Of a DNA stretch of 64,000 nucleotides, positions 4,054 to 48,330 are shown one piece after another; position 1 is the first letter of the stretch; every line of letters begins with the position of its first letter. The DNA lies in NCBI GenBank assembly GCA_003388555.1, contig QQVD01000031.1:62001-126000 (forward strand). The letters are read 5' to 3'. Below the pieces are notes generated by a model. The model did not search any database. It was not told the DNA's origin and saw only the letters and a list, made by a program, of their open reading frames with translations. The DNA is from Acidobacteriota bacterium. GTDB lineage: Bacteria > Acidobacteriota > Thermoanaerobaculia > Multivoradales > Multivoraceae. The position numbers and the translations under genes were made by a program.

Positions 4054-5409
4054 ATGAGGCTCGGCGGCCCGAGGCTCGGTCTGGCGCTGGGACTCGCCCC
4101 GGTGCTCGCCCTCGCCGCCGCCACGGCGTCTCCGGCCCAGTTCGTCCAGTATGCGCGCTCCGGCGGAGTCAGCTTCCCGCTGATCCCGGACCAGGAGGCG
4201 TTCGACGAGGCGATGGACGGCGCTCTGTGGCGGGGTGGACGCTGGTTCGCCGACCCGTGGATCGGTATCCGCAGCATCGGCTACTCGGAGGGCTTCACTC
4301 TCGATCAGGGCGACGGAGAGGGGCAGCGTGGCGACACCGGCGTCCAGGCGAGCGGCGGCGCCGGGTTGCGCATCTACCGTCCGATCGGCGGCCGCGGCAC
4401 CTGGGCCACCCACGTGCTGCCGGAGTACACCTGGTTCGAGCGCGGCGACCGCAGCCGCTTCAACGGACGCTTCGGCACCGGAGTCTTCGCCAACCTCGGG
4501 GGCCTGCTGCTGCAGGCGACCGCGACGCGCCAGGACGAGCTCGAGTTCTTCAGTCGTCAGATCGAGGACCAGATCTCGCAGCGTCGCGACGAGCTGAGCC
4601 TGGCGGCTGAGCTGGGCCTCTTCGGAGCCCTGTCGCTGCACCTGCAGGGGGCCGTGCGCGAGATCGAGTCGCTCGAGGACGGCGAGAGCTTCGACTTCCT
4701 GCGCCAGCTCGATCGCGAAGAGACCAGCATCACCGCGGGGTTCCGGCTGCGCAGCAGCGATGGCCTGATGTTCGGCTTCGGCGCCGGTGTGGTGCAGACC
4801 GACATCGTGCCGTCCGCGACGCTCGGGCTCGGCGTCGACCGTTCGAGTGACGGCAGCCTGATCTACGGCGAGCTCAGCCGGCCGAGCGACAGCTTCGATC
4901 TGCGCGCCAACGCGCAACTGCTGCGTCTCGACTTCGATGCCGGGCCGACGCCGCTCGAGCTCGATGAGGTGACCGGCCAGCTCGGCCTCAGCCGCCGGCT
5001 CGGCGGCCGCTTCGCCCTCGACGCCTACTACCGTCGCACCGCCGGTCTGGGGCTCGGCGCCGACCTGGCCTACTTCCTCGACTCCTCGGTCGGGCTCGGA
5101 GCGAGCACACCGCTGGGCTCGGTCGGCGCCCTGAGGGCCTTCGTCGAGACGGGCAACAACGACTACCGGAACTTCCTCGCCGACAGCGCCGAGCGCGAGG
5201 ACGACTACACCGCCTACGGTGTGGCGCTCAACCTGCGACACCGCACCGGAGTCGGCGTCTACCTCGAAGGGCGGGAGACCGACTACGACTCGAACCTGCC
5301 TGGCTTCGACCGCAAGGTCACCACGGTGCGGGGCGGGCTGAATCTGGGGCTGTCGCTGACGCTGCGCCGCAGCCTGGTGTTCGGCGACGACGGCTCGCCC
5401 TGGGTCTGA
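4054..5409 (+). CDS. Outer-membrane beta-barrel protein of the exopolysaccharide locus
   Basis: A 451-residue protein. ATG 4054 was chosen because it opens a clean signal peptide (MRLGGPRLGLALGLAPVLAL, cleavage near the SPA/QF position) and is preceded by GAGGAG and GAGG. An in-frame GTG at 3973 overlaps the previous stop as GTGA, and would add 27 hydrophilic, basic residues; it is the alternative start. The mature protein consists of alternating polar and hydrophobic strands with aromatic girdles and many Gly, Asp and Arg turns, as expected for a large barrel. It resembles the outer-membrane proteins found beside EPS/exosortase loci. A role in polymer export or surface attachment is inferred from position only. 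Confidence 0.7.
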   Translation: MRLGGPRLGLALGLAPVLALAAATASPAQFVQYARSGGVSFPLIPDQEAFDEAMDGALWRGGRWFADPWIGIRSIGYSEGFTLDQGDGEGQRGDTGVQASGGAGLRIYRPIGGRGTWATHVLPEYTWFERGDRSRFNGRFGTGVFANLGGLLLQATATRQDELEFFSRQIEDQISQRRDELSLAAELGLFGALSLHLQGAVREIESLEDGESFDFLRQLDREETSITAGFRLRSSDGLMFGFGAGVVQTDIVPSATLGLGVDRSSDGSLIYGELSRPSDSFDLRANAQLLRLDFDAGPTPLELDEVTGQLGLSRRLGGRFALDAYYRRTAGLGLGADLAYFLDSSVGLGASTPLGSVGALRAFVETGNNDYRNFLADSAEREDDYTAYGVALNLRHRTGVGVYLEGRETDYDSNLPGFDRKVTTVRGGLNLGLSLTLRRSLVFGDDGSPWV

Positions 5410-5446
5410 CCCCGCGGGGGAAAAGGGTGGGGCGGGGGTGAGGCGG

Positions 5447-6235
5447 TCAGCCGCCGACCGGCAGGATCAGCCCGATCGCCCGCAGGGCATGGAGCAGGCG
5501 CACGTTGTCGTCGGGCTCGAGCGGCGGCTCCTGGATCAGCTCGCCGACGTCACGCTGGCCGTCGATGCTGAGGAACAGCGCGTACTCGGTCTCGTCGAGG
5601 GCGGCATCGATGATCGCTTCGCTGTCGTGCACCTGGGCGTAGCGAGCCTCCTTGCCGCCGAGGCTCGCGAGCATGCGGTCGACCGCGGGAGCGCGCCGAT
5701 TTCCCTTGAGCACCATGTGCTTGAGGGGGATCTGGATGCGGATCGGCTGGTCGTCGCGCAGCTCACCGAGCTCGAACGACACGGCGCCGCTCTCCCAGCT
5801 GAACAGGCTCCAGGCGATGTTGGCGACCTGCTGCTGCACCAGGGTGCGGATCTGGTTGGGGAGCAGCAGCTGCTGTTCCATCAGCATCGTGCCGAGCCGC
5901 TTCTGCTTGAAGTCGGGCAGATCGCGCAGGCGCTCGATCGCCTCACGGGTGAGCACGCGGCGGCGCACCAGGTGGGCACCGAGCGAGTCGCGGCGATCGG
6001 AAGAGCTGGCGAACAGCACGTAGCCGTCGCGCAGGTGGAGCTGCTTGCGGACCCCGTCCTGCTCCGCTTCGAGCACTCCGGAGAGCCGATGGCGGTCGAT
6101 CCGGGCCAGCAGGTCGGCCAGCGACTGCTCGGCGAGGTCGGCGTGGAAGACGTGGCGGGTGCCGCCGAGAGTCACCGTCGGCGGGCGGTGCGTTCCGTGA
6201 TGGGTCTGCTGGGCGGTCGCGGTGAGTTCGTACAT
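5447..6235 (-). CDS. PATAN/DUF4388 domain protein
   Basis: A 262-residue soluble protein, ATG at 6235 behind a strong GAGGAGG site. The N-terminal 150 residues match the DUF4388/PATAN pattern: a 'sGvLe...gvrKqlhlrdGyvlFAsS' segment, then helices with LGAHLVRRRVLT and LGTMLMEQQLL, then a beta strand 'gavsFElGel'. The C-terminal 100 residues are a helical module found after PATAN domains. PATAN proteins are usually response-regulator partners in signalling, sometimes linked to motility or polysaccharide control. Location next to the EPS locus is suggestive, but it is transcribed towards it, not with it. A second PATAN protein is encoded at 31955-34690. Confidence 0.8.
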   Translation of the reverse strand: MYELTATAQQTHHGTHRPPTVTLGGTRHVFHADLAEQSLADLLARIDRHRLSGVLEAEQDGVRKQLHLRDGYVLFASSSDRRDSLGAHLVRRRVLTREAIERLRDLPDFKQKRLGTMLMEQQLLLPNQIRTLVQQQVANIAWSLFSWESGAVSFELGELRDDQPIRIQIPLKHMVLKGNRRAPAVDRMLASLGGKEARYAQVHDSEAIIDAALDETEYALFLSIDGQRDVGELIQEPPLEPDDNVRLLHALRAIGLILPVGG

Positions 6236-6260
6236 GGTGTGGTCCTCCTCGGGCGGGACT

Positions 6261-6288
6261 AGTTTAGCTAGTTAAACGAGAAAATCAA
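6261..6288 (-). promoter_or_regulatory. Candidate promoter and operator of the PATAN gene
   Basis: On the minus strand TTGATT (6288-6283), a 16-nt spacer and TAAACT (6266-6261) resemble -35 and -10 boxes, about 25 nt upstream of the start. The area is an AT-rich island in a GC-rich window. An imperfect inverted repeat (GTTTA, 6-nt gap, TAAAC; 6262-6277) overlaps the -10 box and could bind a regulator. Confidence 0.45.
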
Positions 6289-6332
6289 GTCCACAATCCA
6301 ACGATTTGCCGTGACTCTGCACCGGCCGCCTG

Positions 6333-6361
6333 TTGACACCCGGTCCGGGGTCGGCTAGCGC
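6333..6361 (+). promoter_or_regulatory. Candidate promoter of the repair operon
   Basis: A perfect TTGACA (6333-6338) is followed after 17 nt by TAGCGC (6356-6361), a weak -10. It is the best sigma70-like match upstream of the four-gene repair operon and would give a leader of about 140 nt before GTG 6509. Confidence 0.35.
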
Positions 6362-6508
6362 CTGGTGATGCGCGCTAAGATCCTTTGCAGAGAGGACGAT
6401 AGACGCTTTGAGGACACGGCACAGACGACGCGCTGGCGCACCGTCGGAGCTGACCTCTTCCTCGGCAACCGGTCCGGGCGGCGCCAGCGCGCGACGGCAG
6501 GCTTGCCC

Positions 6509-7690
6509 GTGAGCGCAGGCGCCGCGCCGACGCTGCGTCTGCTGCTCACCGCCGATTGGCAGATCGGCCTGCGTGCCGGCCAGCTGCGTGAACGGGCCGG
6601 CGACCTGCGGCGCGAGCGCCTGCGTGCGGCGCGCCGCACCCTCGAGGTGGCGCGGTCGAGCGGCTGTGAGCTGGTGGTGGTGGCGGGCGACCTCTTCGAC
6701 CGACCCGACGTCGACGCCGACGCGGTCGACGGCGTCGTCTCGCTCTTCGCCGAGTTCTCCGACATCCCGATCCTGGTCCTGCCGGGCAACCACGACCCGG
6801 TCTGCGAGGGAGACGTCTGGGGCCGCCGCGAGTGGCGTTCGGCGCCTGCCCACGTGCACCTGTTGCGCGAGGCGAGGGAGATCGAGCTGTCGAGTCTGGT
6901 CGGCGGTGAGGTGGCGCCGGCTGCGCTCTATCCCTGCCCGATCGGCCAGAAGCAGAGCCGCCTCGATCCCACCGGCTGGATTCCCTCCCGCGCCGAGGGC
7001 GACGAGCGGCTGCGCCTCGGCATCGCCCACGGCAGCCTCGACTCGATGGGCAAGGCGACGAACTTCCCGATCGCGCACCGGCGCGCCGAGCTGGCGGGGC
7101 TCGACTTCCTCGCCCTCGGCGACTGGCACGGCACGACGATCCTCGAGCGCGCCGCCTATCCCGGCACCCCCGAGCAGTGCAGCTTCGGCGAGCAGGGCGC
7201 CGGCTCGGCGCTGGTGGTGACCCTGCGGCGCGGGGCGCCGCCCCAGATCGAGCAGCATCGCGTCGGGCGCTTCCACTGGGTGCAGGAGGAGGTCGAGGTG
7301 CGCTCGGCCAGCGACCTGCAGGCGCTGCGGCACGTCTTCGACGCGGGAGGGAGCGCACCCGAGAGCACCATCGCGCGTCTGCGCCTCGAGCTTGCGGGGG
7401 GCGATCTGCAGCTGATCGAGCGCAGCGAGGGGTTGCTCGAGCAGCTGCGCGAAGAGCTCTTCTTCCTCGACGCCGCACTCGAGGTCCTCGACCTGTCGGA
7501 GGTCGAGTTCGAGTCGCCGCTGCTGGCGGCGCTCGACGCGTCGCTGCACGCGCTCGAGCAAGGCGAACCGGTTCCAGATGCGCTCGACGAGCTGCGGGCC
7601 GCGCCGCTCGAGGTGGTGCGCGAGGCCAGGCTTCAGCTGCGTCGGTGGATGGGTGCGGCGCGCGGCGAGCTCGAGGAGGCGGAAGCGTGA
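6509..7690 (+). CDS. SbcD/Mre11-like DNA repair nuclease
   Basis: A 393-residue metallophosphoesterase. Motifs in order: LLTADWQIG (metal ligand Asp; Gln where classical SbcD has His), VVAGDLFDR, LPGNHDP near residue 93, GIAHGSL and LALGDWHGT. These supply the di-metal site of Mre11/SbcD/YhaO nucleases, which process double-strand-break ends with a Rad50-like ATPase. The C-terminal 100 residues are helical, as expected for a capping or ATPase-docking region. GTG 6509 starts just before the first strand. GTG 6365 or ATG 6368 would add about 48 non-conserved residues. The partner ATPase starts at GTG 7687, overlapping this stop by 4 nt, so the two are translationally coupled. Confidence 0.85.
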   Translation: MSAGAAPTLRLLLTADWQIGLRAGQLRERAGDLRRERLRAARRTLEVARSSGCELVVVAGDLFDRPDVDADAVDGVVSLFAEFSDIPILVLPGNHDPVCEGDVWGRREWRSAPAHVHLLREAREIELSSLVGGEVAPAALYPCPIGQKQSRLDPTGWIPSRAEGDERLRLGIAHGSLDSMGKATNFPIAHRRAELAGLDFLALGDWHGTTILERAAYPGTPEQCSFGEQGAGSALVVTLRRGAPPQIEQHRVGRFHWVQEEVEVRSASDLQALRHVFDAGGSAPESTIARLRLELAGGDLQLIERSEGLLEQLREELFFLDAALEVLDLSEVEFESPLLAALDASLHALEQGEPVPDALDELRAAPLEVVREARLQLRRWMGAARGELEEAEA

Positions 7691-40035: not shown

Positions 40036-40965
40036 GTGATCGCGCCGTGGCGGCACCGGCTGCACGAGGTCATCTTCGAGGCCGACACCCCGGCCGGCCG
40101 TGCCTTCGACGTCGCGCTGCTGGCGCTGATCCTGCTCAGCGTGGCGGCGGTGGTGCTCGAGAGCGTCGCCTCGATCCGGGTGCGCTACGGCACGCCGCTG
40201 CGCATCGTCGAGTGGCTGTTCACGGTGGTCTTCACCGTCGAGTACGTGCTGCGCCTGCTCAGTGTGCGGCGGCCGATGAGCTACGCCCGCAGCTTCTACG
40301 GTGTGGTCGACCTGGTCGCCATCCTGCCGACCTACCTCAGCCTGGTGCTCGAGGGCTCGCAGGCTCTGCTGGTGCTGCGCGCGCTGCGTCTGCTGCGCAT
40401 CTTCCGGGTGTTCAAGCTGGCGCGCTACGTCAGCGAGCTGTCGGTGCTCACCCGCGCGGTGCGCCGCACCTCGGCCAAGATCACCGTCTTCCTCTTCTCG
40501 ATCCTCACCATCGCGCTGATCATGGGCACGTTGATGTACGTGGTGGAGGGAGAGCAGCACGGCTTCACCAGCATTCCGCGCGCCGTCTACTGGGCGATCG
40601 TCACCATCACCACGGTGGGCTACGGCGACATCGCGCCGCGCACCATCGTCGGCCAGATGGTCGCCGCCTTCGCCATGGTGCTCGGCTACTCGCTGATCAT
40701 CATCCCGACCGGCATCTTCTCGGCCGAGATCCTGCAGGCCAACCGATCCGAGGTCTCCAACCGGGCCTGTCCGCACTGCAGCCGTGAGGGGCAGGCGCTC
40801 GACGCCGTCTACTGCAAGTTCTGCGGCGGCAGACTCGAACAGGACGAGCCGGCGCCGCCGCGTCGGCGACGAGGCCTGCGGCGGCGTCGCGCCGCTCCCG
40901 AGCAGGACCCGGCCGAAGGGGCAGTGCCCAGGGGCGACGGGCCGTCCGATCAGAACGGCTTGTAG
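40036..40965 (+). CDS. Voltage-gated K+ channel with zinc-ribbon tail
   Basis: A 309-residue, six-helix channel. S1-S3 precede an S4 of regularly spaced Arg/Lys (RALRLLRIFRVFKLARYV). The pore loop carries ITTVGYGDIAP, the selectivity filter for K+. The cytoplasmic tail has a CPHC-(x17)-CKFC treble-clef/zinc-ribbon motif and then a run of Arg. GTG 40036 is behind GGAGCGGAGG. The last 16 nt overlap the convergent gene at 40950. It would set or use membrane potential; the zinc ribbon might sense or assemble the tetramer. Gene order places it after mlaD, but the functions are not evidently linked. Confidence 0.92.
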   Translation: MIAPWRHRLHEVIFEADTPAGRAFDVALLALILLSVAAVVLESVASIRVRYGTPLRIVEWLFTVVFTVEYVLRLLSVRRPMSYARSFYGVVDLVAILPTYLSLVLEGSQALLVLRALRLLRIFRVFKLARYVSELSVLTRAVRRTSAKITVFLFSILTIALIMGTLMYVVEGEQHGFTSIPRAVYWAIVTITTVGYGDIAPRTIVGQMVAAFAMVLGYSLIIIPTGIFSAEILQANRSEVSNRACPHCSREGQALDAVYCKFCGGRLEQDEPAPPRRRRGLRRRRAAPEQDPAEGAVPRGDGPSDQNGL

Positions 40966-41318
40966 AGCGCCAGGTAGGCCGAGGCGGCGGCGAGCAGCGG
41001 CAGCAGCCAGAGCAGCGGCTTGGCGTACTGCGGGGCGCGGTTGGGGAGCACGATGGCGGCGCCGAAGAGCACCCAGATGGCGATCTTCGCCCAGGTCCAC
41101 AGCGGGATCTGGCCCATGATGCCGAGCCGCGCCAGCATGCCGAAGCCGCTGATCAGCACGATCAGCAGGCCGACGCCCTGCAGCGCGCCGAGCAGGCCGC
41201 GGTTTGGGTTGTTCGCCTTGGTGCCGCCGTTGGCGGCGTGCAGGGCGGCGCCGCCGAGGCCGGCCATCGCCAGCATCATCCCCAGGATGTGCAGCACCTT
41301 GTACAGAGACAGGCTCAT
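40950..41318 (-). CDS. Small four-helix membrane protein
   Basis: A 122-residue protein with four hydrophobic helices: residues 5-24, 40-62, 70-90 and 98-117. ATG 41318 begins MSLSLYKVLHILGMMLAMAG; the GHGN-like N-terminal region and the layout resemble the SirB/CopD-like small membrane families, but the match is not firm. It converges with and overlaps the K+ channel gene by 16 nt. Function unknown. Confidence 0.6.
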   Translation of the reverse strand: MSLSLYKVLHILGMMLAMAGLGGAALHAANGGTKANNPNRGLLGALQGVGLLIVLISGFGMLARLGIMGQIPLWTWAKIAIWVLFGAAIVLPNRAPQYAKPLLWLLPLLAAASAYLALYKPF

Positions 41319-41490: not shown

Positions 41491-42414
41491 ATGGCCGCCG
41501 CCGTCGCCAGCAGCCAGCGCCTGCCGCCGATCGACCACATCGAGCGCACCCGGCGCCTCTACTCGTCGCTCGGCTACGAGCCCTACCGCTGGGTGCACAG
41601 CGCATCGCCGCCGGAGCTGCGGCCGCTGAGCAAGCCGCTCGCCGCGTCGCGCGTCGCCCTGATCGCCTCCGGCGGCATCTACCGCCACGGCCAGCGCGCC
41701 TTCCACCACCGCGATGACCTCAGCCTGCGCATCATCGAGCGCGACACGCCGGACGCCGAGCTGCGCGCCACCCACTTCGCCTACGACCTGAGTGCGGCGC
41801 GCCGCGATCCGGGCGCGGTGTTCCCGCTCGCCGCGCTGCGCCGTGCCGAGGCGGCAGGCCGCATCGGCGAGCTGGCGCCTCGTGCCTACACCTTCATGGG
41901 CGGCATCTACTCGGCGCGCAAGGTGCGAGAGGTCGTCGCCCCGGAGCTGGCGCGGCGGCTGGGCGAGGACGAGGTCGACGTCGGTCTGCTGGTCCCGGTG
42001 TGACCGGTCTGCCACCAGTCGATCGGTCTGATCGCACGTCACCTGGAGTCGGCCGGGATCCCCACCACGAGCCTGAGCAGCGCGCGCTCGATCACCGCGG
42101 CGGTGGCGCCGCCGCGCGCGGTGTTCGTCGACTATCCGCTCGGCCACACCTCCGGCAAACCCGACGACCCGGCGGACCAGGACGCCATCCTCGAGGCAGC
42201 GCTGCGCCTGCTCGAGGCGGCCGTGGCGCCGGGAACGATCGTCGATCTCGACCTGCGCTGGGCCGAGGACGACTCCTGGAAGCTGCCGCTGCTCGCCCCC
42301 GAGCCCGACGACGAGCGCAGCGAGCGACACCCTGAGCCGCAGTACCAGAACGAGGAGGACCGGCGCGCGGCCGAGACCGCCGTAGGTTGCGCCGGCTGCG
42401 TCGAGCTGGAGTAG
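41491..42414 (+). CDS. GrdB/PrdB-family selenoprotein (in-frame UGA read as selenocysteine)
   Basis: The frame from ATG 41491 meets TGA at 42001-42003 and then stays open in the same frame to TAG 42414. The protein is conserved on both sides of the TGA: before it, DEVDVGLLVPV; after it, PVCHQSIGLIARHLESAGIPT, which matches the glycine/sarcosine/betaine/D-proline reductase B family. Sec would be residue 171 in a U-x-x-C redox motif (Sec171-Pro-Val-Cys174), total 307 residues. A SECIS-like hairpin sits right after the UGA. The function is reductive cleavage or an uncharacterised redox role; classical partners (GrdA, GrdC, GrdD, thioredoxin) and the Sec machinery are not in the window. The tail carries CAGC. 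An annotation that stops at 42003 would be wrong. Confidence 0.88.
42001..42046 (+). promoter_or_regulatory. SECIS-like hairpin for selenocysteine insertion
   Basis: UGA occupies 42001-42003. CGATC (42020-42024) pairs with GATCG (42030-42034), leaving an apical loop GGTCT (42025-42029). G42018 can pair with C42035, which bulges T42019, and CCAG (42015-42018) could alternatively pair with CTGG (42043-42046). E. coli fdhF SECIS has the same GGUCU loop bases, a bulged U below it and a similar distance from the UGA, all needed for SelB binding. Confidence 0.8.
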
Positions 42415-46597: not shown

Positions 46598-48002
46598 GTG
46601 ATCCGCACCACCTACTGCGTCTGGGAGCTGACGCTCCAGTGCAACCTCGCCTGCGCGCACTGTGGTTCGCGGGCCGGCACCCGGCGCCATGATGAGTTGA
46701 GCACCGAGGAGGCGCTCGACGTCGTCTGTCAGCTCGCGGAAGTGGGCGTGCGCGAGGTGACGCTCATCGGCGGCGAGGCATGGCTGCGTCGGGACTGGCT
46801 CGAGATCGCCGCTGCGATCGTCGCGCACGGCATGACCGTCGAGCTGGGCACCGGCGGCTACGGCATCTCGGCCGAGGCTGCCCGTCGCATGGCCGAGGCC
46901 GGCCTCGCCCTGGTGTCGGTTTCTGTCGACGGACTGGCGGAGAGCCACGACCGTCAGCGCGCCCGCCCCGGCTCCTTCGACGCCTGCTTCGATTCGCTCG
47001 AGCACCTGGCCTCGGCCTCGCTCCCCACCGCGGTCAACACGCAGATCAACCGGCTCAGCCTTCCCGATCAGCCTCGGCTCCACGAACGCCTGTTGGACGC
47101 CGGCGTGCAGGCTTGGCAGTGGGGGTTGACAGTGCCCATGGGACGGGCGGTGGAACAGGCCGACTGGCTGCTGCAGCCGGCCGAGCTGGTGGAGGCCTAT
47201 GAGGTCCTGGCGGTGGTCGCGCGTCAGGCAGAATTCGATGGGCTCAGGATCCAGGCTGGCAACAACATCGGCTACTACGGACCGTACGAGCGACTGCTCC
47301 GCGGTCACTCCCTCGGAGACCGCAGCATCTGGCAGGGGTGCCACGCCGGTCTCAGCTCCTCGGACTGGAGGCGGACGGCACGGTGAAGGCATGCCCGTCT
47401 CTGCCCACCACGGCCTACCGTGCCGGCAACGTCCGCGAGACGCCGCTGCGGGAGCTGCTCGAGACGGCTCCCGAGCTCGCCTTCAAAGCGGGACGTTCGG
47501 GGTCCCGCGGCGGCCTGTGGGGCTTCTGCGGTGGCTGCGACTACGCACCCCTGTGCCGGGGCGGCTGCAACTGGACCTCGCACGTCTTCTTCGGGCGGCG
47601 CGGCAACAACGTCTACTGCCATCACCGCGCACTCGAGCTGCGTCGTCGGGGCCGGCGCGAGCGGGTGGTGCTGATCGAGCAGGAAGCGATCGTCCCTTCG
47701 ACCACGGTCGTTTCGCGATCGTCGAGGAGCCGGTCGACGCCGCTTGGCCCAGGCGCGATCCGCTGCGGTTCTCGCTCGATCAGGTCCGCTGGCCGAGGCG
47801 GTTCTCCGAGCGACCCGTGCCGCCGCCGGCCGCGGGCGGGGTCGGGGAACCGTCTCTGCAGACACCGCCGGCGGCGCCGACTGCACTTGGTTCTCGTCCA
47901 GCGCTCGAGCTGGCCCCGCGACTCGGTGAGCGCGAGGCGTTCCGGAGCCAGTTCGAGCGAACCGTCGCCCTGCGTGGCGTCGCCGCCCTCCTCGACGACT
48001 GA
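46598..48002 (+). pseudogene. Radical SAM/SPASM RiPP maturase with two frameshifts
   Basis: GTG 46598 begins VIRTTYCVWELTLQCNLACAHCGSR: the CxxxCxxC [4Fe-4S] motif is Cys15, Cys19, Cys22. The core continues with EVTLIGGEAWLRRD (GGE) and VSVSVDG. The frame is lost near 47353: 'GCHAGL' continues as 'QLLGLEADGTVKACPSLP' one base back. It then runs through the SPASM cysteines (FCGGCDYAPLCRGGCNW, YCHH) until about 47687, where a second one-base shift is needed to reach DRPFDHGRFAIVEEPVDAAW, ending at TGA 48002. Joined, it would be about 468 residues, normal for the family. Both faults look like single-base losses. Such enzymes modify Nif11-leader peptides, so it is the partner of the broken precursor. 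Confidence 0.8.
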
Positions 48003-48330
48003 CCTCCGGTCCGAGGCGCTGGAGGTCGCCGAGGCCGGGACGGCGCGCTGCAGCAGAGAGGCCGTCGGGCTGCCGTCCCGGCGCGTGCTCCGGGATGTCC
48101 TCCAGTGCGCGCGGCGGCCGGCGAGCTCCGGCCGGCCCAGAGAACCGTTGCTTCAGGCACAGGGAGGGCACAGGGGGCACACTGGGTGCCAGGGGCCTGG
48201 GAAGACCACGCGACTGCGGTCTCTGTCGCGTTCGCAAGTGTAGAGTGCCCGCGCGCGGGCCCGAACCCCTCAGGTCTGGATTCGGAGCCGCACGCAGGAT
48301 TCGCCGGGTTGACCGCCGCACGGAGGTCGC
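48003..48330. other. Region downstream of the radical SAM pseudogene
   Basis: 328 nt. It shows short G-rich irregular repeats near 48155-48200 and no convincing start plus conserved peptide. It may hold a remnant of an accessory gene of the RiPP locus, but I could not support one. Confidence 0.4.

Follow-up and report, generated by a model that had tools for sequence, protein, structure and literature searches.

The 64,000-nucleotide stretch of Acidobacteriota DNA analyzed here (the window) holds a reading frame interrupted by a TGA, and the question it raises is whether this codon is read as selenocysteine (Sec) and, if so, what kind of enzyme is made. The coding sequence lies at positions 41491 to 42414 of the forward strand and was assigned based on read-through of the TGA, profile matches, and conserved relatives. 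With the TGA taken as Sec, positions 41491 to 42411 translate into 307 residues with one recoded codon, U171 (42001 to 42003, forward strand), followed by TAG. The motif at this site is U171-P-V-C174, with Cys174 encoded at 42010 to 42012 on the same strand. Translation with table 11 gives as sole product a 170-amino-acid open reading frame (41491 to 42003), matching the truncation in routine annotation that a preliminary description of the locus had foreseen.

We scanned public genomes for relatives using search patterns that excluded the Sec region. The scan found 111 relatives, of which the best 80 were read; these are 51 to 62% identical to the window protein, and many come from Gammaproteobacteria MAGs. 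All 80 have TGA at the aligned codon and keep the U-P-V-C sequence, in agreement with the U-x-x-C motif named in the preliminary description. The same description held that the frame is open and family-conserved on either side of the TGA, and both halves are indeed conserved in the alignments of relatives, with Cys174 invariant across the 81-row alignment. Among 60 genomes related to that of the window, 31 had a match, and each of the 22 full-length copies (its own included) holds exactly one stop, which is TGA.

More distant homologues show what else can stand at residue 171. In a sister clade of 20 colinear proteins, the position is occupied by Cys in 18 and by TGA in 2, and P-V/I-C-H-Q follows in all of them. 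Eighteen of these 20 came from a search of 398 genomes, with second matches counted, and 2 were plasmid matches; the 398 genomes belong to the phylum of the genome carrying locus L016 (G065, titled Alphaproteobacteria), and 16 of them had matches. Alphaproteobacterial proteins annotated as “Glycine/sarcosine/betaine reductase selenoprotein B family protein” (e.g., Roseomonas haemaphysalidis WP_207415257.1) are colinear with the window protein and 37 to 42% identical to it. They align CPVCHQ or CPICHQ to its UPVCHQ but differ from it in having Cys for Sec and in lacking a C-terminal C-x-x-C tail. Homologues aligned at residue 171 thus carry Sec (all 80 close relatives read, the best 80 of 111) or Cys (18 of 20 in the sister clade). 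The pattern is not that of a conserved stop, given that the downstream half is conserved and Cys homologues are present. Shorter, more distant Acidobacteriota relatives were represented by 40 loci, chosen by design as 20 listed with TGA and 20 without a stop, and the Sec position there reads TGA in 20, Ser in 11, Cys in 8, and Asp in 1. Eleven pattern matches in viruses yielded no confirmed viral relative.

A short PrdB-like branch in Acidobacteriota family f36 (loci L127-L130, L132, L133, L135, L137, L139, L141, and L143) carries Ser at the Sec position (“SRLCHQ”) and keeps Cys174-His175; judged by sequence, this branch is a natural loss of the selenol. Two loci of genus g2 (L151 and L152) encode a second Sec-containing PrdB-like protein (“UPNC”) with ∼257 residues after Sec, a length that makes a further domain probable. 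One Cys homologue, on a Haematobacter massiliensis plasmid (L184), adjoins the cobalamin genes cobO, cobW, and cobN, and another, in Roseomonas (L183), adjoins selO.

The genome from which the window derives (74 contigs, 98.76% complete) encodes the machinery for Sec insertion. Its tRNA-Sec scores 70.1 bits (cutoff, 47) and was also reported by ARAGORN as tRNA-SeC with anticodon tca, and SelB (315.4 bits; cutoff, 242.25), SelA (422.1 bits; cutoff, 267.9), and SelD (228.3 bits; cutoff, 125) all exceed their thresholds. All four of selA, selB, selC, and selD are therefore found elsewhere in the genome. Because SelB and tRNA-Sec are present, the absence of selB or selC, which the preliminary description had named as an argument against Sec, does not apply here. 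The SelB/tRNA-Sec system would decode the UGA at codon 171.

Directly 3′ of the TGA, positions 42004 to 42039 (forward strand) form the presumed bacterial SECIS region. Across the window's clade, the 10 highest 13-codon stretches of synonymous codon agreement begin at codons 167 to 176 (0.51 to 0.57; gene median, 0.41). Of 81 genes, 73 use GGA for Gly179, compared with 157 of 1,127 Gly codons elsewhere in the same frames, and the codon for Leu180 ends in TG in all 81. A 10-pair family hairpin forms on average 9.53 pairs in the 81 Sec genes versus 7.28 in 18 Cys homologues, and in 8 rows its pair 17-27 is A-T instead of G-C. The peak of synonymous conservation fits the prediction for a bacterial SECIS, and such a hairpin is supported for the family.

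Of the 10 pairs of the family hairpin, the window's own region forms 7 and so does not exceed the Cys homologues, and its stretch after the TGA is no stabler than shuffled sequences (z, +0.76). Four Actinomycetota loci (L028, L037, L054, and L084) also form 7 of 10 pairs, and this variant would fold differently. After the TGA, the window and these four loci have 10 or 11 of 11 or 12 synonymous codons identical, versus fractions of 0.52 to 0.66 elsewhere in the gene. Based on these shared codons, the hairpin variant looks conserved, and we infer a putative SECIS in the window's own sequence. The near-identity with these Actinomycetota loci over 42001 to 42039, which departs from the usual family hairpin, may reflect either a second type of SECIS or past transfer.

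Together, the conserved TGA, the Cys homologues, and the sel genes bear out the preliminary assignment as a selenoprotein, and we regard it as nearly certain that UGA codon 171 specifies selenocysteine. The rival reading, in which the TGA is a true stop and the locus is either a decaying pseudogene or a gene for a 170-residue protein, could draw on the table 11 product and on the weak hairpin of the window. It is extremely improbable given the same TGA in every one of the best 80 of 111 relatives, across several phyla and with a conserved downstream half, and given the existence of Cys homologues and a full sel gene set.

The family placement suggested in the preliminary description holds only in part. 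The protein matches Pfam GRDB (PF07355) at 36 bits, above the gathering cutoff of 22, but the nearest characterized family is PrdB and not GrdB. The best NCBIfam match is PrdB (TIGR04483) at 137.7 bits, below the equivalog cutoff of 300 and well short of the 420.5 bits of a bona fide Terrisporobacter PrdB. All GrdB-type models give 47 to 51 bits, each below its own cutoff, including TIGR01917 (46.8 versus 602.2) and TIGR01918 (50.3 versus 65.45). The C-terminal part of GrdB/F/H proteins (TIGR01917, TIGR01918, NF040794, and NF040795) aligns with the window protein, which itself scores above the Pfam GRDB cutoff; however, these models are ∼430 residues long, the window protein falls below every one of their cutoffs, and it has no GrdE-type partner. 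By profile scores, we place the protein in the GRDB/PrdB superfamily, nearer PrdB than GrdB.

Three bona fide PrdB proteins are 30 to 31% identical to the window protein, with Sec in the same column and Cys174-His175 aligned, and they stop where ∼50 residues of the window protein remain. The PrdB of Terrisporobacter mayombei plasmid pTM1, for example, has Sec at the same site in a U-x-x-C-H motif, but it is 241 residues long, reads U-G-T-C instead of U-P-V-C, has no C-x-x-C tail, and is encoded in a prdC-prdA-prdB operon. A quick tree was built from 84 proteins, with the window's clade represented by 20 of the 80 loci (L187 was omitted, being from the same genome as L016). This clade formed one group (SH-aLRT, 99) adjoining the tail-less Cys/Sec group (97), and PrdB grouped with other short proteins (97); a grouping of PrdB with the window's clade was not rejected by the AU test (p-AU, 0.113). 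In a separate quick tree, the window protein did not group with its family's Acidobacteriota rows and sat on a long branch (0.62) with no starred set. Transfer of the gene is possible.

D-Proline and glycine reductases pair a B-type selenoprotein with a pyruvoyl subunit, and we searched for such a partner at several scales. Work on the pyruvoyl group is among the titles cited in PMC1088965 and PMC13188914. The preliminary description had noted no adjacent grdA, grdC, or prd genes, and in a scan of 12 neighboring frames none matched a GrdA- or GrdC-type family. The PF09338 profile, which detects real PrdA at 80 to 92 bits, had no matches in the window's own genome, and no PrdA-like protein was found there. 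Among the carrier genomes examined (50 of the 80 loci were used), PF09338 occurs in 2 and is absent from 48. When two PrdA proteins and a PF09338 protein served as tblastn queries, 7 of 7 controls were recovered and nothing was found in 164 PrdB-like loci or in the window. Because no PrdA- or GrdE-type pyruvoyl subunit was found in the genome, the protein is unlikely to catalyze D-proline or glycine reduction. The lack of a pyruvoyl partner in these searches agrees with the preliminary description, which had suggested that partner and substrate may differ in this lineage.

The gene neighborhood gives no pointer to function or substrate. Clustering of open reading frames over 81 loci found no neighbor in more than 14 loci once the selenoprotein gene and its overlapping frames were set aside. 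A 122-residue SirB-like membrane protein (40953 to 41318, reverse strand), which scores below its Pfam cutoff and is syntenic, lies close to the selenoprotein gene in the window and in Acidobacteriota loci, with differing orientation. We considered it as a partner and set it aside: a SirB-like protein occurs in 46 of 60 related genomes and the selenoprotein gene in 31 of 60, which points to shared synteny and probably not to partnership. Other neighbors in the window are a potassium-channel-like protein, an alpha/beta hydrolase, an MlaE/ABC/MlaD set, an amidase, DUF1877, and a radical SAM/SPASM gene. In the latter, the radical SAM frame (46598 to 47386) and the SPASM frame (47338 to 48240), both on the forward strand, overlap in different reading frames; 46598 to 48240 is probably one gene split by a frameshift, either a sequencing error or real. 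Separately, an Entotheonella locus (L165, ∼4303 to 7392, reverse strand) has a PF09338/GrdB-like gene with an in-frame TGA, followed by a SirB-like protein 41% identical to that of the window.

A feature that sets the window's clade apart from PrdB is a C-terminal C-x-x-C formed by Cys300 and Cys303 (42388 to 42399, forward strand), close before the end of the protein at residue 307. Each Cys is present in 78 of 81 rows, and the motif is absent from PrdB and from 20 of 20 sister-clade proteins; it falls outside both the PrdB and the GrdB family models. Because tails in the 81-row alignment were ended at the next TGA, as were the readings of the 40 distant loci and the sister clade, L074, L081, and L086 may merely seem to lack Cys300 and Cys303. 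Strict coupling of tail and Sec was rejected on the evidence of L200 and L204, in which TGA is present and the tail absent. These two sister-clade Sec proteins without a tail indicate that Sec can be used in the absence of the relay.

An AlphaFold2 model, built from an alignment of 39 of the 80 loci plus the window, is confident nearly throughout (mean pLDDT, 92.8; 91 for residues 301 to 307). The predicted fold is a Rossmann-like alpha/beta arrangement in which Sec171 would sit between a strand (164 to 168) and a helix (172 to 187), just ahead of the latter. Foldseek found no match to the model in the PDB at an E value of ≤0.001, and the best VIA-align Z score was 8.5, which is common for such a Rossmann-like arrangement. 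These generic Rossmann-like rows led us to claim no fold kinship to any PDB entry, and a PDB sequence search likewise gave no relative (best E value, 0.38).

Other redox selenoproteins pass electrons through a similar selenolate, a nearby Cys, and a C-terminal dithiol. The selenolate at a helix N terminus, the Cys three residues on, and the C-terminal dithiol of the window protein resemble this arrangement, and on that basis we propose a stand-alone reductase. We think it likely that the protein is a partner-free, PrdB-like selenol/thiol oxidoreductase with a real Sec171, and a single-subunit enzyme with a C-x-x-C relay is the form we consider probable. In such an enzyme, the selenolate of Sec171 would attack or reduce the substrate, Cys174 would resolve it as a selenenylsulfide, and Cys300-x-x-Cys303 would take over the oxidation, with a thioredoxin-type donor restoring the dithiol. 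An electrophilic substrate, such as a disulfide or a peroxide, would be more plausible than D-proline or glycine.

Two other functions have to be weighed against this proposal. The protein could be a true D-proline/glycine-type reductase B subunit, with the gene for its pyruvoyl partner lying elsewhere or missing from the assembly. PrdB is after all its best NCBIfam match, Sec and Cys174-His175 align with bona fide PrdB, and the genome is in 74 contigs; however, the score is under half of the PrdB cutoff, the C-terminal tail is extra, no PrdA-like protein was found, and PF09338 is missing both from a genome that is nearly complete and from nearly all carriers. We consider this reading quite improbable, and it is very likely that the window protein is not a D-proline reductase. 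Alternatively, a GRDB-superfamily selenoprotein might act on a small molecule such as an amine in complex with an unrelated, unlinked partner. Characterized GRDB relatives work in complexes, and in the loci of other bacteria some neighbors look like acyl-CoA or short-chain dehydrogenase-type enzymes (families judged by eye), at most in 14 of the 81 loci. Glycine reductase subunits are described in PMC13188914. Set against this, no neighbor is common to more than a minority of loci, and the SirB-like neighbor also occurs in relatives that lack the gene; such a complex, with a partner of a sequence unrelated to PF09338, seems unlikely, if conceivable. The stand-alone oxidoreductase thus remains our preferred reading.

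The kind of protein encoded here has been seen before. Catalogues of ocean metagenomes have listed a Sec-containing “Proline reductase PrdB” with UxxC since 2005, and it accounts for 42 of 310 selenoprotein genes in the Sargasso Sea selenoproteome (PMC1088965). The GOS selenoproteome lists “PrdB” (UxxC, pfam07355) with 235 Sec and 110 Cys sequences (PMC2398784), and a 2026 review lists “D-proline reductase TIGR04483 UxxC” (PMC13188914). As presented in the available parts of these sources, the Sargasso Sea and GOS proteins share with the window protein Sec in UxxC and an environmental rather than clostridial setting, and the GOS table gives the same Pfam family. Likened by description, the window gene likely belongs to the same subfamily. 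Because Sec “PrdB” with UxxC already stands in these three lists, we assign the window gene to a known kind; the Sec-UxxC ocean “PrdB” is probably that kind, and the name “proline reductase” is probably wrong. In the portions available, the accounts of ocean “PrdB” in PMC1088965 and PMC2398784 mention no C-x-x-C tail and no missing partner, and the literature seen in part gave no mention of a C-x-x-C tail or a missing PrdA in nonclostridial “PrdB.” Within the literature searched, neither the missing pyruvoyl partner nor the C-x-x-C tail seems to have been noted before.

We give even chances to a broader proposal, that a clade spanning at least seven phyla consists of single-subunit selenoenzymes joining a PrdB-like domain to a C-terminal C-x-x-C relay, which would have dispensed with the pyruvoyl partner and would catalyze something other than the reduction of D-proline or glycine; ocean “PrdB” would then largely be this enzyme misnamed. 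By the counts of the ocean surveys, few selenoprotein families in the sea are as abundant as Sec “PrdB,” and its function there is assumed from the clostridial D-proline reductase. If carriers generally lack the pyruvoyl partner, as did 48 of the 50 genomes examined here, a common selenoenzyme would be left without an assigned reaction. The conserved C-x-x-C tail provides a simple, testable hypothesis for the electron path of the clade.
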